From: a virus
Direction: 5' to 3' (one strand)
Virus record (IMG/VR): IMGVR_UViG_3300044675_003048
Coordinates: 1 to 24,891 of that record
DNA: 24,891 nt
Below, in pieces: positions 97-21,207 of this stretch. Made by a program: the position numbers and the translations under genes. Within the stretch, counting starts at the first letter, position 1. Each line of letters opens with the position of its first letter. Under the pieces are notes generated by a model that saw only the letters and a list, made by a program, of their open reading frames with translations, did not search any database and was not told the origin of the DNA.

Positions 97-1246
97 GAAA
101 GCAACTCCACCGCCAGTACCAGACTATGGTGCAGCAGCTAAACAGCAAGGTACTGCTAACTTAGAGTCTGCTGTAGCTACGTCTAAACTATCTAACCCCA
201 ATACATACGGGCCATTAGGTAGTCAGGTAGTTACCTACGGCACTGGAGCAGATCAGTACACCCCAACCATTAGGCAGACACTTACGCCAGACGCTCAAGC
301 TACTTTAGAAGCTCAACAGGGCGTAGAGAGATCACTTGCAGAATTAGGTCAGCAAGGTGTTGCACAAGCTAAAACCATACTAGGTACACCGTTTAATCCT
401 AATCTGCCGGGCATTGATACAAGCATAGCAGAGTCAGTTTCACCAGTTAACCAAGCTACATACAACGCTGGAAGCGCACAGAGGTCTGTGGCTGGTCCTA
501 CTTTTCAGCAAGGTATAGATACGTCAGGAATAGCCGCAATGCCTGTTAACGCAGGGATGACTGGTCAGCAAGCAATTATGTCTAGGTTACAGCCTCAGTT
601 AACACAGAATGAGAATGCAACAAGGCAGCGTCTTGCAAATCAAGGTCTAGTTACGGGTGGCGAGGCTTATGAGAATGAGATGCGTACTATGGGCCAGAAC
701 AGAAATGACTTAGAGCTACAAGCTGCTGCACAAGGTATCAATCTTGATGCAATGATGAATCAGCAAGGCTTTGGACAGGCTCAGGCTCAAGGACAGTTTG
801 GCAATGAAGCCCAACAATCACAGTTTAACGCTGCTTTGCAGAATGCTGGCATGGGTAATACGGCGCTCCAGCAAGACTACCAGAATCAATTAGCTGCACA
901 AACTGCACAGAACGCCGCTGTTGCACAAAACTTTAACCAGCAACTTAATTTAGCTCAATTTGGCAATGCAGCACAGCAACAAAGTCTTGAGCAGCAACTT
1001 GCGCTGCGTAATCAGCCACTGAATCAGATCACGGGCTTGATGAGTGGATCACAGATACAGATGCCGCAGTTTCAAGGCTTTCAGCCATCTAATGTTGCTG
1101 CTGCTCCGATCTATCAGGGTGTACAAGATACGTTTCAAGGTCAGATGGATCAGTACGGCATCAGACAGCAAGCTAAAAATAACCTTACAAGCGGCTTAAT
1201 GAGTCTTGGCGGCGCTGGGGCTGGCGCTGCTGGTATGTTTGCATAA
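89..1246 (+). CDS. Glutamine/asparagine-rich virion protein, probable internal or ejection protein
   Basis: A 385-residue protein that I cannot assign to a named family. It has a short proline-rich N-terminus (MGKKATPPPVPDYGAAAKQQ). A long central part (about residues 150-310) is dominated by Gln, Asn and Ala with an alpha-helical look (AQAQGQFGNEAQQSQF). It ends in a hydrophobic glycine/alanine tail (GGAGAGAAGMFA). No signal peptide is seen. The start is preceded by a strong AGGAGG at 79-84. The composition, and its position at the head of a run of similar proteins before the fibres, resemble the internal virion or DNA-ejection proteins of podovirus-like phages. That role is inferred. The stop shares a base with the next start (TAATG). 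Confidence 0.6.
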   Translation: MGKKATPPPVPDYGAAAKQQGTANLESAVATSKLSNPNTYGPLGSQVVTYGTGADQYTPTIRQTLTPDAQATLEAQQGVERSLAELGQQGVAQAKTILGTPFNPNLPGIDTSIAESVSPVNQATYNAGSAQRSVAGPTFQQGIDTSGIAAMPVNAGMTGQQAIMSRLQPQLTQNENATRQRLANQGLVTGGEAYENEMRTMGQNRNDLELQAAAQGINLDAMMNQQGFGQAQAQGQFGNEAQQSQFNAALQNAGMGNTALQQDYQNQLAAQTAQNAAVAQNFNQQLNLAQFGNAAQQQSLEQQLALRNQPLNQITGLMSGSQIQMPQFQGFQPSNVAAAPIYQGVQDTFQGQMDQYGIRQQAKNNLTSGLMSLGGAGAGAAGMFA

Positions 1247-1929
1247 TGTTAGGACTTGCTTTCTCAGGCGGTAAAGATTCTCTAGCTTGCTGGTATTTAT
1301 ATAAAGCTAAGAATCCTATCGTGTTATGGGTAAACACTGGCAAGGCTTACCCTGAGACATTAGCTATAGTAGAAGAGATTAGAGCAGAAGCAGTCGAATT
1401 CATTGAGATTAATGTAGATCAACAAGCTCAGATTGACGCTAATGGCATACCTAGTGACATAGTGCCAATTGCCAATACCTTAGATGGGATGATTGTATCG
1501 GGTAAGAAGGATGTTTTGATACAGAGTCACTTAAACTGCTGTATGGAGAATATTACTCTACCGCTGCTTGAAGCAATGAAAAAGAGGGGCATTACTCAAC
1601 TCATTAAGGGTCAGCGTAATGATGAGTCATTCAAGGGCGAGTCTAGGCATGGAGCAGTTGTAGACGGTATAGAGTACATACAACCTATAGAGAAGTGGAC
1701 GAGTAAACAGGTATTAGACTTTGTAGCAACGCAGCGCGGTCAACTGCCAGAACACTTTAGCTTAAACCATACAAGCCTTGACTGTTACGACTGCACTGGC
1801 TTTATGAAGGACTCAGCAGATAGGATTGAATGGACTAAAGTAAACCATCCAGAACTATATGATAAGTATGCGTTAAACATGAGCAAATTAAAGGGTACAA
1901 TCATTCCAATCGTTGAGTTAATGAGGTAG
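1246..1929 (+). CDS. PAPS-reductase-like / adenine nucleotide alpha-hydrolase family protein
   Basis: A 227-residue protein of the phosphoadenosine-phosphosulfate reductase-like (PP-loop) superfamily. The ATP-pyrophosphatase P-loop SGGKDS is at residues 8-13, followed by the beta strand IVLWVNTGKAYPET. Later come LNCCMENITLP (about 99-109), the phage-typical KGQRNDESFKGE and a C-terminal CYDC pair. Members bind ATP or PAPS and act in sulfur transfer, sulfate reduction or nucleic-acid thiolation; which of these applies here cannot be told. It sits inside the virion-gene run with a TAATG overlap upstream and a 2-base gap downstream, so it is co-expressed with structural genes. Paired cysteines (CC and CxxC) suggest redox or metal chemistry. 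Family assignment is good; substrate unknown. Confidence 0.85.
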   Translation: MLGLAFSGGKDSLACWYLYKAKNPIVLWVNTGKAYPETLAIVEEIRAEAVEFIEINVDQQAQIDANGIPSDIVPIANTLDGMIVSGKKDVLIQSHLNCCMENITLPLLEAMKKRGITQLIKGQRNDESFKGESRHGAVVDGIEYIQPIEKWTSKQVLDFVATQRGQLPEHFSLNHTSLDCYDCTGFMKDSADRIEWTKVNHPELYDKYALNMSKLKGTIIPIVELMR

Positions 1930-1931
1930 TT

Positions 1932-2360
1932 ATGGCAAACAGAATCGTAAATTTCCAGATGCAGCAACCGGGTGAGATGGCTAATCCACAGGTAGTAGGA
2001 GTGCAACAGCAGAACCGTTTGTCACTAGCTGAGAGACTTAGGAAGTATGGCCTAGATCAAGATAGTAACGGCCCACAATCGTTTGCAGATTCGTTTAATC
2101 AGCAAATGCGGAATCAAATGAGGCAGCCACAGGATGAGCCACAGACACCACAGCAGCAACAAGCTGGTCAAATTATGAAGAGCTACAACGCTAGTGGTGG
2201 TGGCTCTGAGATGGGATGGAAGCCAAGCGCACCTATGTCAGCACAGCGCGGAATGATGGGAGATATGGCAAGGGCTGGCGGTGCAATTAGCAGAGGTGCA
2301 AGCAATGCTGGTGGCGCTCTCAAGTCTGCTGCCGCTGGCTTTGGCAAACTTTTTGCATAA
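1932..2360 (+). CDS. Small Gln-rich, Ala/Gly-tailed virion protein
   Basis: A 142-residue protein of unknown function. The N-terminal half is Gln-rich and polar (FQMQQPGEMANPQ; a run of PQ repeats around residues 65-80). The last 40 residues are an Ala/Gly/Ser-rich amphipathic segment (SRGASNAGGALKSAAAGF) ending GKLFA, much like the end of the protein at 89-1246 (AAGMFA). It starts 2 bases after the PAPS-reductase-like stop; no strong ribosome site is visible, so coupled translation is likely. The shared composition and tail suggest a second, smaller internal virion protein. Function is inferred from context only. Confidence 0.6.
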   Translation: MANRIVNFQMQQPGEMANPQVVGVQQQNRLSLAERLRKYGLDQDSNGPQSFADSFNQQMRNQMRQPQDEPQTPQQQQAGQIMKSYNASGGGSEMGWKPSAPMSAQRGMMGDMARAGGAISRGASNAGGALKSAAAGFGKLFA

Positions 2361-2371
2361 GGGAGATAGTC

Positions 2372-3643
2372 ATGGCAGATAACCAATTCATTAATTTCAA
2401 TTCGCAAGATGTTGCTGATATGTATCGGCGTAATCAGTACGCCAGAATGCTACAGGATCAGGCTAACGCACCCATTGAACGTGCTAGCTACAAGGGCATA
2501 GAAGCTCCTCTTCATCCAGTACAGGGCGTTGCTAAGATGGCTGCTGCTTTACTAGCTGGCTACCAGCAGAATCAGATGGATGAAAGATATGCCAAAGAGA
2601 AGTCTGATGCCGAACAGAAGTTAGTTGCTGAACAGGAACGTAGTAATCAAGCGTATAACGAGTTTGAAGCTGGTCTAGCTCCAAAGCCCGGTTTTGGCGC
2701 ATCTGGTAGCGTTGAAGATTATGGTGGTCAGGAAATGATGCCGAAGCCACGATCAGACGCGGAACGTCTTGCACACTTAATGCGTTCTAGAGGTAGTCCT
2801 GATGAGAGAATTCGTAGTTCTGCAAAAAATTACTTAGATTATGACGCTGCTCAAGTTCAAGAGAAAACAAGGTTAGATGAGAGAGAGCGAGATAGATTAG
2901 ACACTCAAGCGCAGAGAGAGCAAGATCAAAAAAATAAAGATAGGACATTTAAGCAAACTGAGCTTGCTTCAGAAAGGTCATATAACCAGCAAGCAAATAG
3001 ACAGCCACCTTTAAATAAAGGTGAGCGATATAACAAAGAAACTGACACAGTTGAGCAAATACCCGGCTCTCAGGCATATTTAAAAAATAAAGGACTTCAT
3101 GCCGCTGATTTATCATCAGCACAACTAACTTCTTCAATAGATGACAATTTGGGAAGCAATATTAGCAAACTACTTGCATCGCCCGGATTTGATTCAATTT
3201 TTGGAATAGCTGGTGGGCTAACTCCAAATGTTCTTCCAGAGGCTAAATCCGCAGCAACACTTAGAAAGCAAGTTATGGATGCGATGGGGCCTGCTGGTAT
3301 GCTAATAAACAAGGGAGCAGTTGGAAGTATTGGAACAATGGCTCTTGGTGAGTGGGATAAGGTTGCATCTTACATAGCTGCAATAAAAGATACGGACAAT
3401 CCAGAAGATGCTCGTAAAGCCTTTGAAAACGCATTAATAATCCTTAAAAGGACTAAACAAATAGCAACTGATAAATATGAAAATGAGTGGGGCGGGAGTC
3501 AATACGATACTAGAAAAGCAAGCTCTAATGGTAAACAAGATACAGTAACAACTGCGTCATCTGTTGCACCAATGTTTGCTAATAACGGCAAATCAAGAAT
3601 TACTTCCACAGATGGCGGGAAAACATGGAAGGAGATTAGATAA
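2372..3643 (+). CDS. Coiled-coil internal virion protein candidate
   Basis: A 423-residue soluble protein. The N-terminal region (residues 30-60) has the pattern IEAPLHPVQGVAKMAAALLA, seen in internal proteins of podovirus-like phages. It is followed by a long charged helix-rich stretch (about 70-100 and again 160-210) rich in Glu, Gln, Arg and Asp that should form coiled coil. A more globular half (about 250-370) includes DNLGSNISKLLASPGF and IIKLKRTK-like basic helices. The C-terminus has SRITSTDGGKTWKEIR, resembling a short beta-hairpin repeat. GGGAGA lies upstream at 2361-2366. The stop overlaps the next ATG (TAATG). I read it as a DNA-ejection or internal core protein; direct proof is lacking. 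Confidence 0.6.
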   Translation: MADNQFINFNSQDVADMYRRNQYARMLQDQANAPIERASYKGIEAPLHPVQGVAKMAAALLAGYQQNQMDERYAKEKSDAEQKLVAEQERSNQAYNEFEAGLAPKPGFGASGSVEDYGGQEMMPKPRSDAERLAHLMRSRGSPDERIRSSAKNYLDYDAAQVQEKTRLDERERDRLDTQAQREQDQKNKDRTFKQTELASERSYNQQANRQPPLNKGERYNKETDTVEQIPGSQAYLKNKGLHAADLSSAQLTSSIDDNLGSNISKLLASPGFDSIFGIAGGLTPNVLPEAKSAATLRKQVMDAMGPAGMLINKGAVGSIGTMALGEWDKVASYIAAIKDTDNPEDARKAFENALIILKRTKQIATDKYENEWGGSQYDTRKASSNGKQDTVTTASSVAPMFANNGKSRITSTDGGKTWKEIR

Positions 3644-9509: not shown

Positions 9510-10049
9510 ATGATTACGCTCGATGGAACTTTAGGAATTACTACACCCAGCGAAACTAACACAGGAACACTGAGTGTCACTGGAGTAACAACGCTGACTG
9601 GTGGACTAAACGCTGCTCTGCCAGTATTGAGTGGCGGCACAGGAGTTACTACTAAGACTGGTACTGGTGCTGTAGTGCTGGGTACTTCGCCTACTCTAGC
9701 CACCCCTACATTTGACTCTGCTCAACTACCCACAATCTCTGGGACTGCACCACTCTATATGTGTCGTGCATGGGTAAACTTCAACGGAACTGGTACTGTG
9801 GCTATTCGTGCAAGCGGGAACGTGAGTAGTATTACGGATAACGGCACTGGCGATTACACGGTGAACTTTACTACTGCATTGGTGGATGCGAATTATTCTG
9901 CAACACATGGACAAGGCCCAAGGTCTACTGCTCCTTTTTGTTCGGTTTATGTTTCAAACACTTCATCAACTTATAGTTTTCAAACAATTAATACTATAAC
10001 TGGCGCAGTAGCAGACGCTTCAATAGTATTTGTTGCTATTGTTCGCTAA
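9510..10049 (+). CDS. Tail fibre-like protein with shaft repeat
   Basis: A 179-residue protein starting at the ATG at 9510, with AAAGGAGA at 9497-9504; an in-frame ATG at 9438 lies inside the previous gene and lacks a ribosome site. The first 80 residues are Thr/Gly-rich shaft, including LPVLSGGTGVTTKTGTGAVV and LGTSPTLATPTFDSAQLP, closely similar to the shaft in the fibre at 5220-6524. The rest (about 80-179) is a beta-rich tip (YMCRAWVNFNGTGTVAIRAS, then DNGTGDYTVNFTTALVDANY) of a type found at the C-terminus of several phage fibres. Probably a receptor-binding or fibre-tip protein. Confidence 0.75.
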   Translation: MITLDGTLGITTPSETNTGTLSVTGVTTLTGGLNAALPVLSGGTGVTTKTGTGAVVLGTSPTLATPTFDSAQLPTISGTAPLYMCRAWVNFNGTGTVAIRASGNVSSITDNGTGDYTVNFTTALVDANYSATHGQGPRSTAPFCSVYVSNTSSTYSFQTINTITGAVADASIVFVAIVR

Positions 10050-10064
10050 TAAAAAGGATTAATT

Positions 10065-10259
10065 ATGAACAAAAGAATAATATACAAGACGCCCGATGGC
10101 GGCGTAGCAGTTCTAATTCCGACACCAGAATACCTACAAGACCACACTATCGAAGAACTTGCTGCCAAAGATGTACCGGCAAATACTCCTTTTGAGATTG
10201 TAGACACAGACACAGTACCAGCAGACCGTACATTCAGAGGAGCATGGACATGGGCATAA
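10065..10259 (+). CDS. Small conserved phage protein near tail fibres
   Basis: A 64-residue acidic protein, MNKRIIYKTPDGGVAVLIPT..., with AAAAAGGA at 10051-10058 upstream. It has a Pro/Thr/Asp-rich C-terminal half and ends FRGAWTWA. Proteins of this pattern (IYK.PDGGVAV..P, then IVD...VP.DR.FR.AW) occur between fibre genes and lysis genes in many phages, usually just before the type of protein that follows here. Function is not known; a role in tail tip or fibre assembly is inferred from position. Confidence 0.7.
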   Translation: MNKRIIYKTPDGGVAVLIPTPEYLQDHTIEELAAKDVPANTPFEIVDTDTVPADRTFRGAWTWA

Positions 10260-13155: not shown

Positions 13156-13161
13156 AATTGC

Positions 13162-13170
13162 ACTATAGCA
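13162..13170 (-). promoter_or_regulatory. Extended -10 promoter, leftward
   Basis: On the minus strand the 9-mer TGCTATAGT forms an extended -10 element (TGn plus TATAGT). It is the same 9-mer as in both mirror promoters at 18.6 kb, and the longer context TATGCTATAGT is shared. No convincing -35 is present at 16-18 bases. It would drive the gene at 13057 and the genes after it, with a leader of about 100 bases. Confidence 0.55.
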
Positions 13171-17108: not shown

Positions 17109-17157
17109 TTTAATTTCCTTATTTTGGTTTTTATGTCGTTGTGAAACCGACAAGAGA

Positions 17158-17186
17158 AGTATAGCAGAACTAAATTATTATTTCAA
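17158..17186 (-). promoter_or_regulatory. Sigma70-like promoter for the ssDNA-binding gene
   Basis: On the minus strand TTGAAA (17181-17186), a 17-base spacer ending in TGC, and TATACT (17158-17163) make a good sigma70 promoter with an extended -10. It overlaps the end of the DUF2800 gene and leaves a leader of about 40 bases before the start at 17108. The TGCTATA core is shared with the promoters at 13.2 and 18.6 kb. Confidence 0.75.
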
Positions 17187-18297
17187 AGTCTTTTGCGGAA
17201 ACGATACAGCTTGGTCGTTTATCGCTCTCCGGCACGAGCGTTGGCGTACCCTGCGGCTTGGTCGAGAGGCTGTCGATTATCTCCTTGTTACCCTTACCAA
17301 CCGCCTTTTCCGCTTTGGCAACGCTGAGTAGCTTGTGTTCGAAGGCATCCAACCCCAGCAGATCACTCAGGGCTGATGCTGCACGATCATCATCTATCCA
17401 TGCCCTGTTCGACCTACCCTCGACCATCTTGAAGCCCTCGAAGGATTTGCCTGACTCTAGCCGCTCGGAGACTAGGCTCTCTACTGCGTCCAGCCAGCTC
17501 ACGATCAACTTTTTGCTCTCGAGGGCTTTCCGTAGTTGCTGGTCGGTCAAGGTGTCAGGGTTGGCTGGTGACAGATCATCAAACTGACTCATCATTGCCT
17601 GCTCGGCGTAGACCTTTAGGGCCGGGCAGGTTGCCTTCGCCCTACACCACTGGCACTGCTTCTCGCCGGGGGTACGCGGTGCGTTAGGTTGCGCTGCCCG
17701 TTCAGCCGCTTGCGTAAGCCTCTCTGCCCAAGCGTTAACCTCATCAATGGTTAACTCCCACTCACTTATATGATCTAGGCGTGGCTGCACGATGGTAATT
17801 ACAATGGTTTTGAAGGCCATCCAGCTATGATTGCTAATAGCACCAATGGCATAAAGCAATGCCTGTGTGTTATTCTCAGCATCAACTCGGACACCCTTCC
17901 CATATTTGAGATCGATCACGTGCAGAGTGTCGTTACCCATCACGAGGGCATCGCACGTTCCAAAACCATCCGGCGCGACATGGCTGAAGTCTACGTACTG
18001 CTCAACCAGCACCATTCCTTTTTTAGATTTAACGTAGTCAACGTAGACTTGCACATAGTCGGCCATCTCCTGAGTGACAGTAACCGCATTGTTATCAATG
18101 AGTTGTTTATCCACCCACTCAGACGCTCGCTCGCCCATTGTTAAGCATATCTCCGCTAACTCATGGGCGGCTGTACCCTCATCGGCGTAAATGCTGCTCT
18201 TGTTGGGTAAGCCCTGCTCGGCTTCGATTGATCCAGCGCACAGAAACCACTTGGCGCTTCCTGATGCTGAGAACCTAGCGTGTGCCTTAGTGTTCAC
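17170..18297 (-). CDS. DUF2800 protein, Cas4/RecB-like PD-(D/E)XK nuclease fold
   Basis: A 375-residue protein of the DUF2800 family, common in phage replication modules next to DUF2815. Visible features: HARFSASGSAKWFLCAGS (C20), DEGTAAHELAE (about 39-49), FGTCDALV then LHVIDLKYGKGVRV (the D...DxK nuclease core, about 112-137), and CQWCRAKATCPAL (about 214-226). The single Cys plus the C-x2-C-x5-C set resembles the iron-sulfur cluster of Cas4/AddB-type nucleases. It may be an end-processing exonuclease in recombination. It overlaps the upstream small gene by 11 bases. Confidence 0.85.
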   Translation of the reverse strand: MNTKAHARFSASGSAKWFLCAGSIEAEQGLPNKSSIYADEGTAAHELAEICLTMGERASEWVDKQLIDNNAVTVTQEMADYVQVYVDYVKSKKGMVLVEQYVDFSHVAPDGFGTCDALVMGNDTLHVIDLKYGKGVRVDAENNTQALLYAIGAISNHSWMAFKTIVITIVQPRLDHISEWELTIDEVNAWAERLTQAAERAAQPNAPRTPGEKQCQWCRAKATCPALKVYAEQAMMSQFDDLSPANPDTLTDQQLRKALESKKLIVSWLDAVESLVSERLESGKSFEGFKMVEGRSNRAWIDDDRAASALSDLLGLDAFEHKLLSVAKAEKAVGKGNKEIIDSLSTKPQGTPTLVPESDKRPSCIVSAKDFEIII

Positions 18298-18580
18298 TGA
18301 TCGCCTCCAGCTTTGCTTTGATCGCTGAGTAATGTTTGGCAGGGATGTCCGAAATTATCTTGGCGTTGTCATAGGCAGCTAGTGCCGCTACGATCTGCGG
18401 CTTCTTGGTGCGGTCATTACGCACGATGGTTGTACACATGGCTTGCAAGTCCTCGGCGGTGACAGTTTTATCAAGTGCCGGAATAGAAGCAGGCAAAGGC
18501 GGTGCTTTTTGGGCGATTATTGCTGCTGTATTGGCATCAACAGACGCGATTAGCGCGGTGAGTAGTTGTTCGATTGTCAT
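18287..18580 (-). CDS. Small early protein, first gene of the leftward operon
   Basis: A 97-residue protein from the ATG at 18578-18580 with AAAGGAAA just upstream; a longer in-frame start reads into the promoter repeat and is rejected. The N-terminus is helical with an Ala-rich VDANTAAIIAQ segment, then a short Pro/Ala linker (APPLPASIPALDK), then VTAEDLQAMCTTIVRN and a C-terminal helix pair (IVAALAAYDNAKIISDIPAK). That last part resembles the small C-terminal domain of phage proteins linked to single-strand binding or recombination genes. Function unknown. It is the first gene read from the leftward mirror promoter. Confidence 0.7.
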   Translation of the reverse strand: MTIEQLLTALIASVDANTAAIIAQKAPPLPASIPALDKTVTAEDLQAMCTTIVRNDRTKKPQIVAALAAYDNAKIISDIPAKHYSAIKAKLEAISEH

Positions 18581-18614
18581 TTTAGTTTCCTTTTGTTTGT
18601 GGTTTGGAAGTAGA

Positions 18615-18623
18615 ACTATAGCA
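18615..18623 (-). promoter_or_regulatory. Leftward extended -10 promoter
   Basis: On the minus strand TGCTATAGT forms TGn plus TATAGT within the left arm. At a 17-base spacing its -35 would fall on the central bases 18638-18643, the same bases used by the rightward copy. It would drive the operon from 18580 leftwards. Confidence 0.7.
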
Positions 18624-18657
18624 TAAGACAAATAATTTATATGTTTTATTTGTCTTA

Positions 18658-18666
18658 TGCTATAGT
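18658..18666 (+). promoter_or_regulatory. Rightward extended -10 promoter (mirror copy)
   Basis: TGCTATAGT in the right arm is the exact mirror of the leftward element. The initial transcribed bases are identical for about 12 bases in both directions. It drives the Cro-like gene at 18698 and the primase. No consensus -35 is visible, so the extended -10 probably carries recognition. Confidence 0.7.
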
Positions 18667-18697
18667 TCTACTTCCAAAACAACTTATGGAGAACAAG

Positions 18698-18907
18698 ATG
18701 CAAAACATACTAATGATGAAGATCATTAAACATTACGGCTCACAGCGGAAACTCGCAAAGGCTTTGGGTGTTACAGAGGGTTCCGTTTCGCACTGGGTAA
18801 AGGCGGGGTATTTCCCACCAGCTCAGGCTATCAGGATTGAACGGGCGATGGGTAATAGTGCTTTTCGTGCAGTATATCTGGTTGCTCCTGATAAAGAAGG
18901 TGCGTGA
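18698..18907 (+). CDS. Cro/YdaS-like helix-turn-helix repressor
   Basis: A 69-residue DNA-binding protein starting MQNILMMKIIKHYGSQRKLA. A GGAGA 5 bases upstream of 18698 fixes this start; an earlier in-frame ATG (18686) and a longer frame through the repeat lack a good ribosome site. The helix-turn-helix is at about residues 12-34 (GSQRKLAKALGVTEGSVSHW) and is followed by KAGYFPPAQAIRIERAMG, the usual Cro/YdaS continuation. It would bind a palindromic operator as a dimer, most likely inside the adjacent inverted repeat, and so regulate both early arms and itself. Its stop overlaps the primase start (TGATG). Confidence 0.88.
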   Translation: MQNILMMKIIKHYGSQRKLAKALGVTEGSVSHWVKAGYFPPAQAIRIERAMGNSAFRAVYLVAPDKEGA

Positions 18908-21207
18908 TGAAGATCGCCACTGGCGGTGAAAACAAGGGAAAAGTTAAAAATGTAGAGATCGCGTGGTCTGACCTATCTGCAAAGTTAACTACCCACGCGG
19001 TGGGTGACAAGGGTAAGAAGTTCTTTGTAGGTGGTCACTTCCAGCGTGATGTTAGAGAGGATTCTGAGCTAATAGCTCGAACGCTCTTGACGTTCGATGT
19101 CGATAACGCGGGTATGACGCTGGACAACATCGAGTATCTTTTGACGATGAACCTCGACTGCGCTTTCGCTGCTTACTCCACGCATAGCCACACTGTGGCC
19201 TCCCCTCGACTGCGAATAGTCATACCTCTCTCCCGTGAGGTCACAGGCGATGAGTACCGCGTACTTTCTCGCTCTGTGGGTGCTAGTCTTGGCATACCTC
19301 TGGATGAGTGCAGCTTCAAGCCTAATCAGCTTATGTACACTCCATCGATGGTTGCTGGTGCTGACGTATGGTCAATGCTGGGTGAGGGTGAGTTCTATCC
19401 CGTCCCTGACTTTATAGCTACACCAAAAGTTAAGGAGCTGGATGACCTCTCCGCGATGGTTGCAGCGTTACCCCTAGACATAACGGATGTAGAGGTAGAT
19501 GCAACGCTGTCAGCATACCCCGCTACCGGGCTGGACTATGACGCATGGCTCAAGTGTGGCATGGCGCTCTACCATCAGTTCTTAGGCTCTAAGGTGGGCT
19601 TTGCTCGGTGGGTGGCGTGGTCTAAGCTCGATGCTGAACGCTTTGATGATGGCGAGATGAAGGCTAAGTGGAAGTCCTTTGGTGGTAGTGATAAGCCAGT
19701 CACGATGGCTAGTATTATCTACCACGTTAAGCAGGCAGGGGGAGTTGTATCAACTGCAAAGGGTTGGCTTGAGCAAATTGATGCTTGTGAGGATAAACAC
19801 GCGCTTGAGAAGCTGGTGCAGTTCAAAATATCTGCCGACAAGACCATAGGGGCGGTGGATCAGGCTGGGTTAGAGATAGCAGTAAAGACCAAATTCTCTG
19901 AGTTCGGCGTAGTTCTACGCGCTGATCCATTGCGTAAGTTGTTCAAGCCAAAACACAAACGGGCATTGCCTGATATTAGTGGGAGTGAATTGCCGCTGGA
20001 AACCATAGGTAATCTCAGGGCCGTTGCTGATAACTGCAATGTTACGATCAGATACAACGTCATCAAGAAGGAAGATGAAATTCTAATACCTGACGCGGGT
20101 TGGTCAATTGACAATGGCAAGACTGCTTCAATAACGTGGCTACAGTCTGAGTGCCACAAGGTCGAGATGCGAACCGCCAATATAAAAAACTTTGTAACCC
20201 TGCTGGCTGATAGTAACCAGTTCAATCCCGTGACCGAATGGATTAATTCAAAGCAGTGGGATGGTGTTTCAAGAATTGATGCTTTTTACGATACGGTTCA
20301 AGAGGATACCGATAAATGCTCTGCCAAGATGAAACGTATCGTAATGTTGCGCTGGGCGGTGTCTGCTATTGCAGCGGCGTTTAGTCCTAATGGCATTATG
20401 GCTCGTGGTGTGTTGGTATTTCAAGGTGTGCAATACTCTGGCAAGACGCGGTGGATTGATGCGCTTGCACCAAAGGACATGGAATTAATTAAAACAGGTA
20501 GAGCATTGAATGTTCACGATAAGGACTCGGTTAAGCAGATAGTTTCCTCTTGGATCAGTGAGTTAGGTGAATTAGATGCTACGTTCAAGAAGTCTGACAT
20601 TGCCGCACTAAAGGCGTTCATCACATCGGACACGGACGAATTGCGTAGACCTTATGCCGCTGCCGAAAGCCGCTACGCTAGGCGTACAGTATTTGCGGCC
20701 TCTGTGAATGAGTCAAAGTTCTTGCAGGACGATACGGGTAATAGTAGGTTTTGGGTTATCCCAATTGTTTCAATTAATCACGCCCACGAGTTAGATATGC
20801 AGCAGGTGTGGGCTGAGTTTTATGTGTTGTGGAAGGGTGGCGAAAAGCACTATTTAACTAATTCAGAAATGGCAATGCTCAATGGACATAATGAAAGTTT
20901 TACCGCCCCTGAACCTATTTTTGAGATGGTTTCCAGTCACCTTGACTGGGCTAATTTTGACCCTAACGACTGCCGATGGATGCAAACGAGTGATGTTTTG
21001 AGGTGGATAGGTAAGGAAAATCCGTCAAAATTTGAAACAATTGTGGGGGGTAGAGCAATTCAAAAAATGAACGGGGGTATGCAAAGAAAGAGTCATGGAA
21101 AGTTACTTTCGGCAGTTCCCAATGAAAAACTCTCAATTGAGGTTCATAATTTTGACAAACTTGGTAATACTTCCAGTGAGGGGGGATATGAATCTATCCC
21201 CTTTTAG
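18907..21207 (+). CDS. Bifunctional primase-helicase (primpol, PriCT_2 and VapE-like ATPase)
   Basis: A 766-residue replication protein; ATG at 18907 follows AAGAAGG. N-terminal primase-like domain: LTFDVDN (metal-binding D64/D66), THSHTVASPRLRIVIPL (about 92-108) and KPNQLMYTPS. Middle: PriCT_2-like LDYDAWLKCGMALYHQF ... FDDGEMKAKWKSF. C-terminal superfamily 3-type VapE ATPase: Walker A in GVQYSGKTRW, Walker B in SWISELGELD, and the arginine-finger region DDTGNSRFWVI. It should make primers and unwind DNA at the fork for the family B polymerase encoded on the other arm. Being co-transcribed with the repressor ties replication start to the promoter switch. Confidence 0.9.
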   Translation: MKIATGGENKGKVKNVEIAWSDLSAKLTTHAVGDKGKKFFVGGHFQRDVREDSELIARTLLTFDVDNAGMTLDNIEYLLTMNLDCAFAAYSTHSHTVASPRLRIVIPLSREVTGDEYRVLSRSVGASLGIPLDECSFKPNQLMYTPSMVAGADVWSMLGEGEFYPVPDFIATPKVKELDDLSAMVAALPLDITDVEVDATLSAYPATGLDYDAWLKCGMALYHQFLGSKVGFARWVAWSKLDAERFDDGEMKAKWKSFGGSDKPVTMASIIYHVKQAGGVVSTAKGWLEQIDACEDKHALEKLVQFKISADKTIGAVDQAGLEIAVKTKFSEFGVVLRADPLRKLFKPKHKRALPDISGSELPLETIGNLRAVADNCNVTIRYNVIKKEDEILIPDAGWSIDNGKTASITWLQSECHKVEMRTANIKNFVTLLADSNQFNPVTEWINSKQWDGVSRIDAFYDTVQEDTDKCSAKMKRIVMLRWAVSAIAAAFSPNGIMARGVLVFQGVQYSGKTRWIDALAPKDMELIKTGRALNVHDKDSVKQIVSSWISELGELDATFKKSDIAALKAFITSDTDELRRPYAAAESRYARRTVFAASVNESKFLQDDTGNSRFWVIPIVSINHAHELDMQQVWAEFYVLWKGGEKHYLTNSEMAMLNGHNESFTAPEPIFEMVSSHLDWANFDPNDCRWMQTSDVLRWIGKENPSKFETIVGGRAIQKMNGGMQRKSHGKLLSAVPNEKLSIEVHNFDKLGNTSSEGGYESIPF

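Follow-up and report, generated by a model that had tools for sequence, protein, structure and literature searches.

The junction between the leftward and rightward early operons of this viral DNA carries a 76-bp inverted repeat that is probably an early control region, in which two back-to-back mirror copies of one promoter-operator unit are co-repressed by the adjacent Cro protein. We examined the element in the window (the whole stretch of 24,891 nucleotides analysed here), in related contigs that carry the same or exchanged versions of it, and in a wider survey of phage sequences.

Results

The preliminary description had reported a perfect 33-bp inverted repeat. The two arms, at 18603-18635 (left, minus strand) and 18646-18678 (right, plus strand), are indeed fully complementary and flank a 10-bp centre, TTTATATGTT, at 18636-18645. 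The arms reach 36 bp if one mismatch is tolerated. The inverted-repeat score of 33 compares with a mean of 7 and a maximum of 10 in dinucleotide-resampled versions of the region. Folding of the single strand gave -35.2 kcal/mol versus a shuffled mean of -5.1 (z = -15), and the 76-bp element is AT-rich with strong hairpin potential. A search across the window for a second copy of the 21-bp core, allowing up to 3 mismatches, found none. We rejected an intrinsic terminator because the element was absent from the terminator scan list, and a mobile inverted-repeat element because there is a single copy in the window.

The repeat lies exactly where the two operons diverge. The rightward operon starts with the cro-like gene (18698-18907, plus strand), followed by a VapE-type primase/helicase gene (18904-21207, plus strand; Pfam VapE-like_dom and PriCT_2). 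The first leftward gene is an ORF for a 97-aa protein (18287-18580, minus strand), which is found at the same place in the relatives L005, L008, and L041 and has no Pfam match. It is followed by a DUF2800 PD-(D/E)XK exonuclease (17170-18297, minus strand; Pfam and PHROG), SSB, DNA polymerase, an 88-aa gene in the VRR-NUC position, and SNF2; the operon has also been given with a helicase after the DNA polymerase. Neither a Peptidase_S24 repressor nor a tyrosine integrase was found in 13 contigs (the window and 12 relatives, up to 57 kb, possibly incomplete or fragmentary), and the gene content suggests that the phage is likely to be strictly lytic. Elsewhere in the window, among the structural genes, an ORF at 1246-1929 carries an SGGKDS motif and by this motif resembles PAPS reductase/ATP pyrophosphatase.

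The cro-like gene encodes a 69-aa protein that both its sequence and its predicted fold place in the P22/N15 all-alpha Cro family, in agreement with its first description as Cro-like. It scored 47.4 bits against Pfam P22_Cro (cut-off 30.2), and its matches among PDB sequences included N15 Cro (8e-6) and P22 Cro (1e-5). The predicted model (pLDDT 84.5) is a small all-alpha fold with five helices and no strands, and its top fold matches, 6on0 and 3bd1 (E ~3e-3, TM 0.64-0.72), are the N15 Cro-operator complex and Xfaso 1 Cro.

Each arm contains an extended -10 element, TGC TATAGT, at 18658-18666 on the plus strand (predicted start ~18673) and at 18615-18623 on the minus strand (predicted start ~18608). 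On both strands TGN abuts a TATAAT-like hexamer with 5 of 6 matches, as in extended -10 sigma-70 promoters, the transcripts of which are expected to start 6-8 nt downstream. The two -10 elements are 40 bp apart and the predicted starts ~65 bp apart, leaving ~6 transcribed bases in each arm and not the ~12 first proposed. The proposal that the two -35 positions coincide stands: at 17-bp spacing, both hexamers are 18638-18643, within the centre. In the window these hexamers read TATATG and CATATA, each matching the consensus TTGACA at 2 of 6 positions, and the promoter reading thus rests on the extended -10 elements and on the comparison with relatives. A consensus promoter scan listed no promoter at the repeat, a -35/-10 matrix did not rank the two repeat sites first, and the promoter score of the window's own junction, taken alone, was not significant against shuffles.

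The -10 motif recurs before other genes. Allowing up to one mismatch, we counted 6 occurrences of TGCTATAGTTC in the window versus 0.5 expected, and 3 of the 4 copies outside the arms lie just upstream of a correctly oriented gene. One copy, TGCTATACTTC (17156-17166, minus strand), lies in the gap before the SSB gene; another, TGCTATAGTGC (13160-13170, minus strand), lies in the gap before a 138-aa gene; and a near-copy at 10034-10044 (plus strand) is just upstream of the gene at 10065. The SSB copy is kept in the L008, L028, and L041 lineages; in L008 it was observed in the same contig as L029. By sequence, the near-copies before these three genes are likely extended -10 promoters. Because copies precede other genes and the SSB copy is conserved, we take TGC-TATAGT to be a general promoter element of this phage.

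The inner arm segments (18624-18635, minus strand; 18646-18657, plus strand) behave differently: they belong to the repeat alone and are missing from the window's other TGCTATA promoters. These segments are the best candidates for a Cro site, a putative operator present once in each arm. A local dyad search for a discrete Cro operator returned candidates, none of which recurs in L120, one of the relatives described below.

L003 and L004 carry an element identical to that of the window. In L005 and L006, the Cro proteins of which are 99% identical, the 22-bp core of each arm is kept, the outer left arm is altered, and the centre differs by 1 base. The extended -10 elements are identical in all four. 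L120 is more distant: its Cro is 54% identical, the gene order on the left is the same, including the DUF2800 neighbour, and a Prim-Pol/AAA protein stands in place of VapE. Its arms are GAACTATAGCATTAATAAATTTA and TAAATTTATTATTGCTATAGTTC; the core of each -10 element, the centre length of 10, and the -10 to -10 distance of 40 are as in the window. Six inner positions changed identically in both arms and 1 in a single arm, and the two inner segments thus changed together while staying complementary, as the preliminary description had asked of aligned relatives. The chance overlap of the shared changes is 7e-5 over 23 positions before the same base is required; over the 12 inner positions it is 0.008, or 1e-5 to 4e-4 with the same base required. 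These statistics take positions as independent and do not distinguish selection from homogenisation of the arms.

The centre of L120, GCTTGTCAAA, contains TTGTCA and TTGACA on opposite strands, so that the right promoter reads TTGTCA-17-TGC-TATAGT and the left, on the opposite strand, TTGACA-18-TGC-TATAGT. Promoter scoring picks out both strands of the L120 junction (p = 0.005). This layout supports a shared central -35 region. With both L120 -35 elements inside the central 10 bp and the -10 motif recurring before other genes, the idea of twin mirror promoters gained support. The exactness over 33 bp, on the other hand, is not maintained: identity extends over ~22 bp in L005 and over 23 bp with 1 mismatch in L120, and L041 is asymmetric. 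Part of the conservation of the arms can be put down to their common promoter type.

L008 belongs to the same phage type, with exonuclease and VapE genes 97.3% and 97.7% identical to those of the window at the DNA level. Between the outer boundary of the left arm and the 3' end of cro, however, identity drops to 59%. L008 carries a different Cro of 65 aa and its own repeat, AATATTAGCACA-12-TGTGCTAATATT, with the extended -10 TGC-TAATAT on both strands. Because L008 differs in both promoter pair and Cro and is ~97% identical on either side, we conclude from the alignment that the two are exchanged as one cassette. A P22/N15-type Cro would be expected to bind, as a dimer, a palindromic operator at its own promoter, and the joint exchange is an indirect sign of such binding. 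The Cro proteins of L045-L047 have the same recognition helix as L008, TQGAVSQW, and their element resembles that of L008 but is less perfect. Upstream of cro, L045-L047 also show three TAATATTA-like sites at 15-bp steps, perhaps tandem Cro sites. L041 represents a third version, in which the left extended -10 is kept and the right mirror partner is missing. Symmetry is thus not essential, and among these relatives mirror symmetry appears to be common but not obligatory. L041, a close relative, also shows a mosaic exchange at 1030-3432, where both the VapE-type protein and the Cro differ but the exonuclease beside them is almost identical.

We asked how general this layout is. At 15 representative Cro/DUF2800 junctions, a pool that includes junctions related to each other, promoter scores on both strands exceeded those of shuffles (Fisher p = 1e-6). 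Most distant relatives with the same gene order had no significant inverted repeat at the junction, and compact divergent promoters therefore appear as the general rule and long mirror identity as a special case. Interlocked promoters that we saw by eye in L056, L058, and L039 were dropped, as they were not significant against shuffles in this AT-rich DNA. The window gene order is kept in Pseudoalteromonas phages AL and PHS21 and in Vibrio phages 1.017.O and LP.1, none of which has a long perfect repeat; the LP.1 junction protein, by eye unlike the window Cro, was left out. Annotated phages with VapE matches mostly had a different gene order, and a distant blastn search of the junction against sequenced phages gave no match. 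A scan of genome contigs gave weak relatives only, including two Marinomonas loci that by eye lack a mirror promoter, and an arm-core scan of viral contigs also matched unrelated coding sequences.

Exact copies had been thought rare among divergent phage promoters. Pattern scans for paired ACTATAGCA/TGCTATAGT changed this picture, as near-exact mirror pairs also occur at divergent starts in unrelated phage contigs. ORF starts flanked 26 of 45 scan pairs on both sides, versus 25% of random places, in a set of 45 that counts the window group and some near-duplicates. Unrelated contigs in which divergent starts carry a mirror pair of TGCTATAGT are L205 (3011-3091), L203, L198, L202, L270, L244, and L255. 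L205 has long arms and an ATG six bases past both -10 elements; in several of these pairs an ATG follows the -10 by 6-7 nt on both sides, which suggests leaderless mRNAs. In L261 (950-1040), ~20-bp perfect mirror arms surround TGCTATAGT, with TTGACA and TTGACT at 17 bp; this element adjoins a divergent gene for a Cro/C1-type HTH protein (HTH_26) and is a possible independent case of the mirror layout.

Discussion

We propose that each arm acts as a host sigma-70 type extended -10 promoter with a putative repressor-binding segment upstream. The right copy would drive cro and the primase gene, and the left copy the operon for exonuclease, SSB, and polymerase. The two promoters would be of equal strength. 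Cro expressed from the right promoter would bind the same site in each copy and repress the two operons, including its own, about equally. One bound RNA polymerase would be expected to exclude a second from the element, because only ~65 bp separate the starts and the two -35 positions fall on the same central bases. The arms would match because a single Cro requires the operator and the -10 element to keep one register in each. In the window's lineage this match would have been lengthened to 33 bp, either because one arm was copied or because the other decays slowly. As L005 and L120 have not kept the extension, the best explanation for it is that one arm was copied from the other or that the two share a recent origin.

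Copying might account for more than this extension. If template switching or gene conversion homogenised the arms, the long exact identity could be mainly mutational, with selection acting on the short promoter elements only. Imperfect inverted repeats are documented sites of template switching (PMC8604942, PMC7202029). In the window the outer 11 bp match perfectly, which they do not in L005 or L120, and the left-arm TTTGGAA also belongs to the backbone of L008 and L041, as outward copying of one arm would produce. We nevertheless consider this account unlikely: identity in L005 and L120 does not end randomly but 2-4 bp past the -10, the centre length and -10 spacing are constant, and L008 has a different repeat of similar layout with a different Cro. 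The last observation also bears on the idea that two ordinary promoters are alike through a common host motif, the repeat being a recent accidental duplication without regulatory meaning. The presence of the same -10 motif at other phage promoters and the lack of a mirror in L041 fit such an accident, but the inner segments are absent from those other promoters and yet change together in L120, and L008 exchanges repeat and Cro jointly, making it rather improbable.

Another possibility we considered is that the element serves chiefly as an origin of replication or as a cruciform recognised by the primase, the promoters being incidental. It is AT-rich with strong hairpin potential, adjoins the primase gene, and has a GC-skew minimum nearby, although divergent gene direction also predicts the skew. 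The extended -10 elements are placed symmetrically at the divergent operon junction, a search for iterons in the surrounding 700 bp found none, and in L008 the element has been replaced although the primase is almost identical. An origin or cruciform role thus seems very improbable, and we favor the mirror pair of Cro-controlled promoters.

In lambda, cro is first in the rightward operon, near the replication genes, and a recombination-type exonuclease is encoded in the leftward operon. The window is similar to lambda pL/OL and pR/OR in that cro heads a rightward operon near replication genes and the exonuclease lies leftward, and, by analogy with pL and pR, its two divergent promoters would be expected to share one repressor. 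Unlike in lambda, no cI-type gene lies between the promoters, which stand back to back within 76 bp with mirror-copy candidate operators. A lambda-type switch has a divergent prophage repressor opposing cro; here the leftward neighbour is the 97-aa protein. By this comparison, the layout resembles lambda pL and pR joined without cI. At the bio operator of Escherichia coli, overlapping divergent promoters lie under one palindromic operator controlled by BirA. One symmetric element with two divergent promoters would be a feature common to both, but the regulator here is Cro and the geometry is different.

The window Cro has the fold and family of the Cro proteins of the telomere phages N15, PY54, and phiKO2, and N15 OR3, TTATAGCTGGCTATAA, has TATAGC/GCTATA in common with the window arms. 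The Cro proteins of these phages oppose the prophage repressor at tandem or single compact operators, and PY54 Cro has strict specificity for a 16-bp palindrome (PMC4488713, PMC4997575). In the window, by contrast, the matching halves are at least 34 bp apart and a prophage repressor was not found. E. coli bidirectional promoters are pseudo-symmetric, share a -10 and have starts 10-23 bp apart; opposing polymerases exclude each other there, and compete only if the promoters are strong (PMC12825309). The window element is likewise pseudo-symmetric, but it has two separate -10 elements 40 bp apart and starts ~65 bp apart.

More tentatively, and with somewhat less than even confidence, we suggest that a mirror promoter-operator pair and its Cro form an exchangeable specificity cassette, that the symmetry is selected for balanced repression, and that the layout has arisen repeatedly in unrelated phages. 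Two divergent promoters of the same sequence make polymerase competition and coordinated repression testable without promoter differences, and the natural swap of Cro and repeat in L008 and the co-varied repeat of L120 are ready-made specificity comparisons. Taken together, these results suggest that cro can occur without cI in phages that seem not to be lysogenic, where it would govern the early genes symmetrically.
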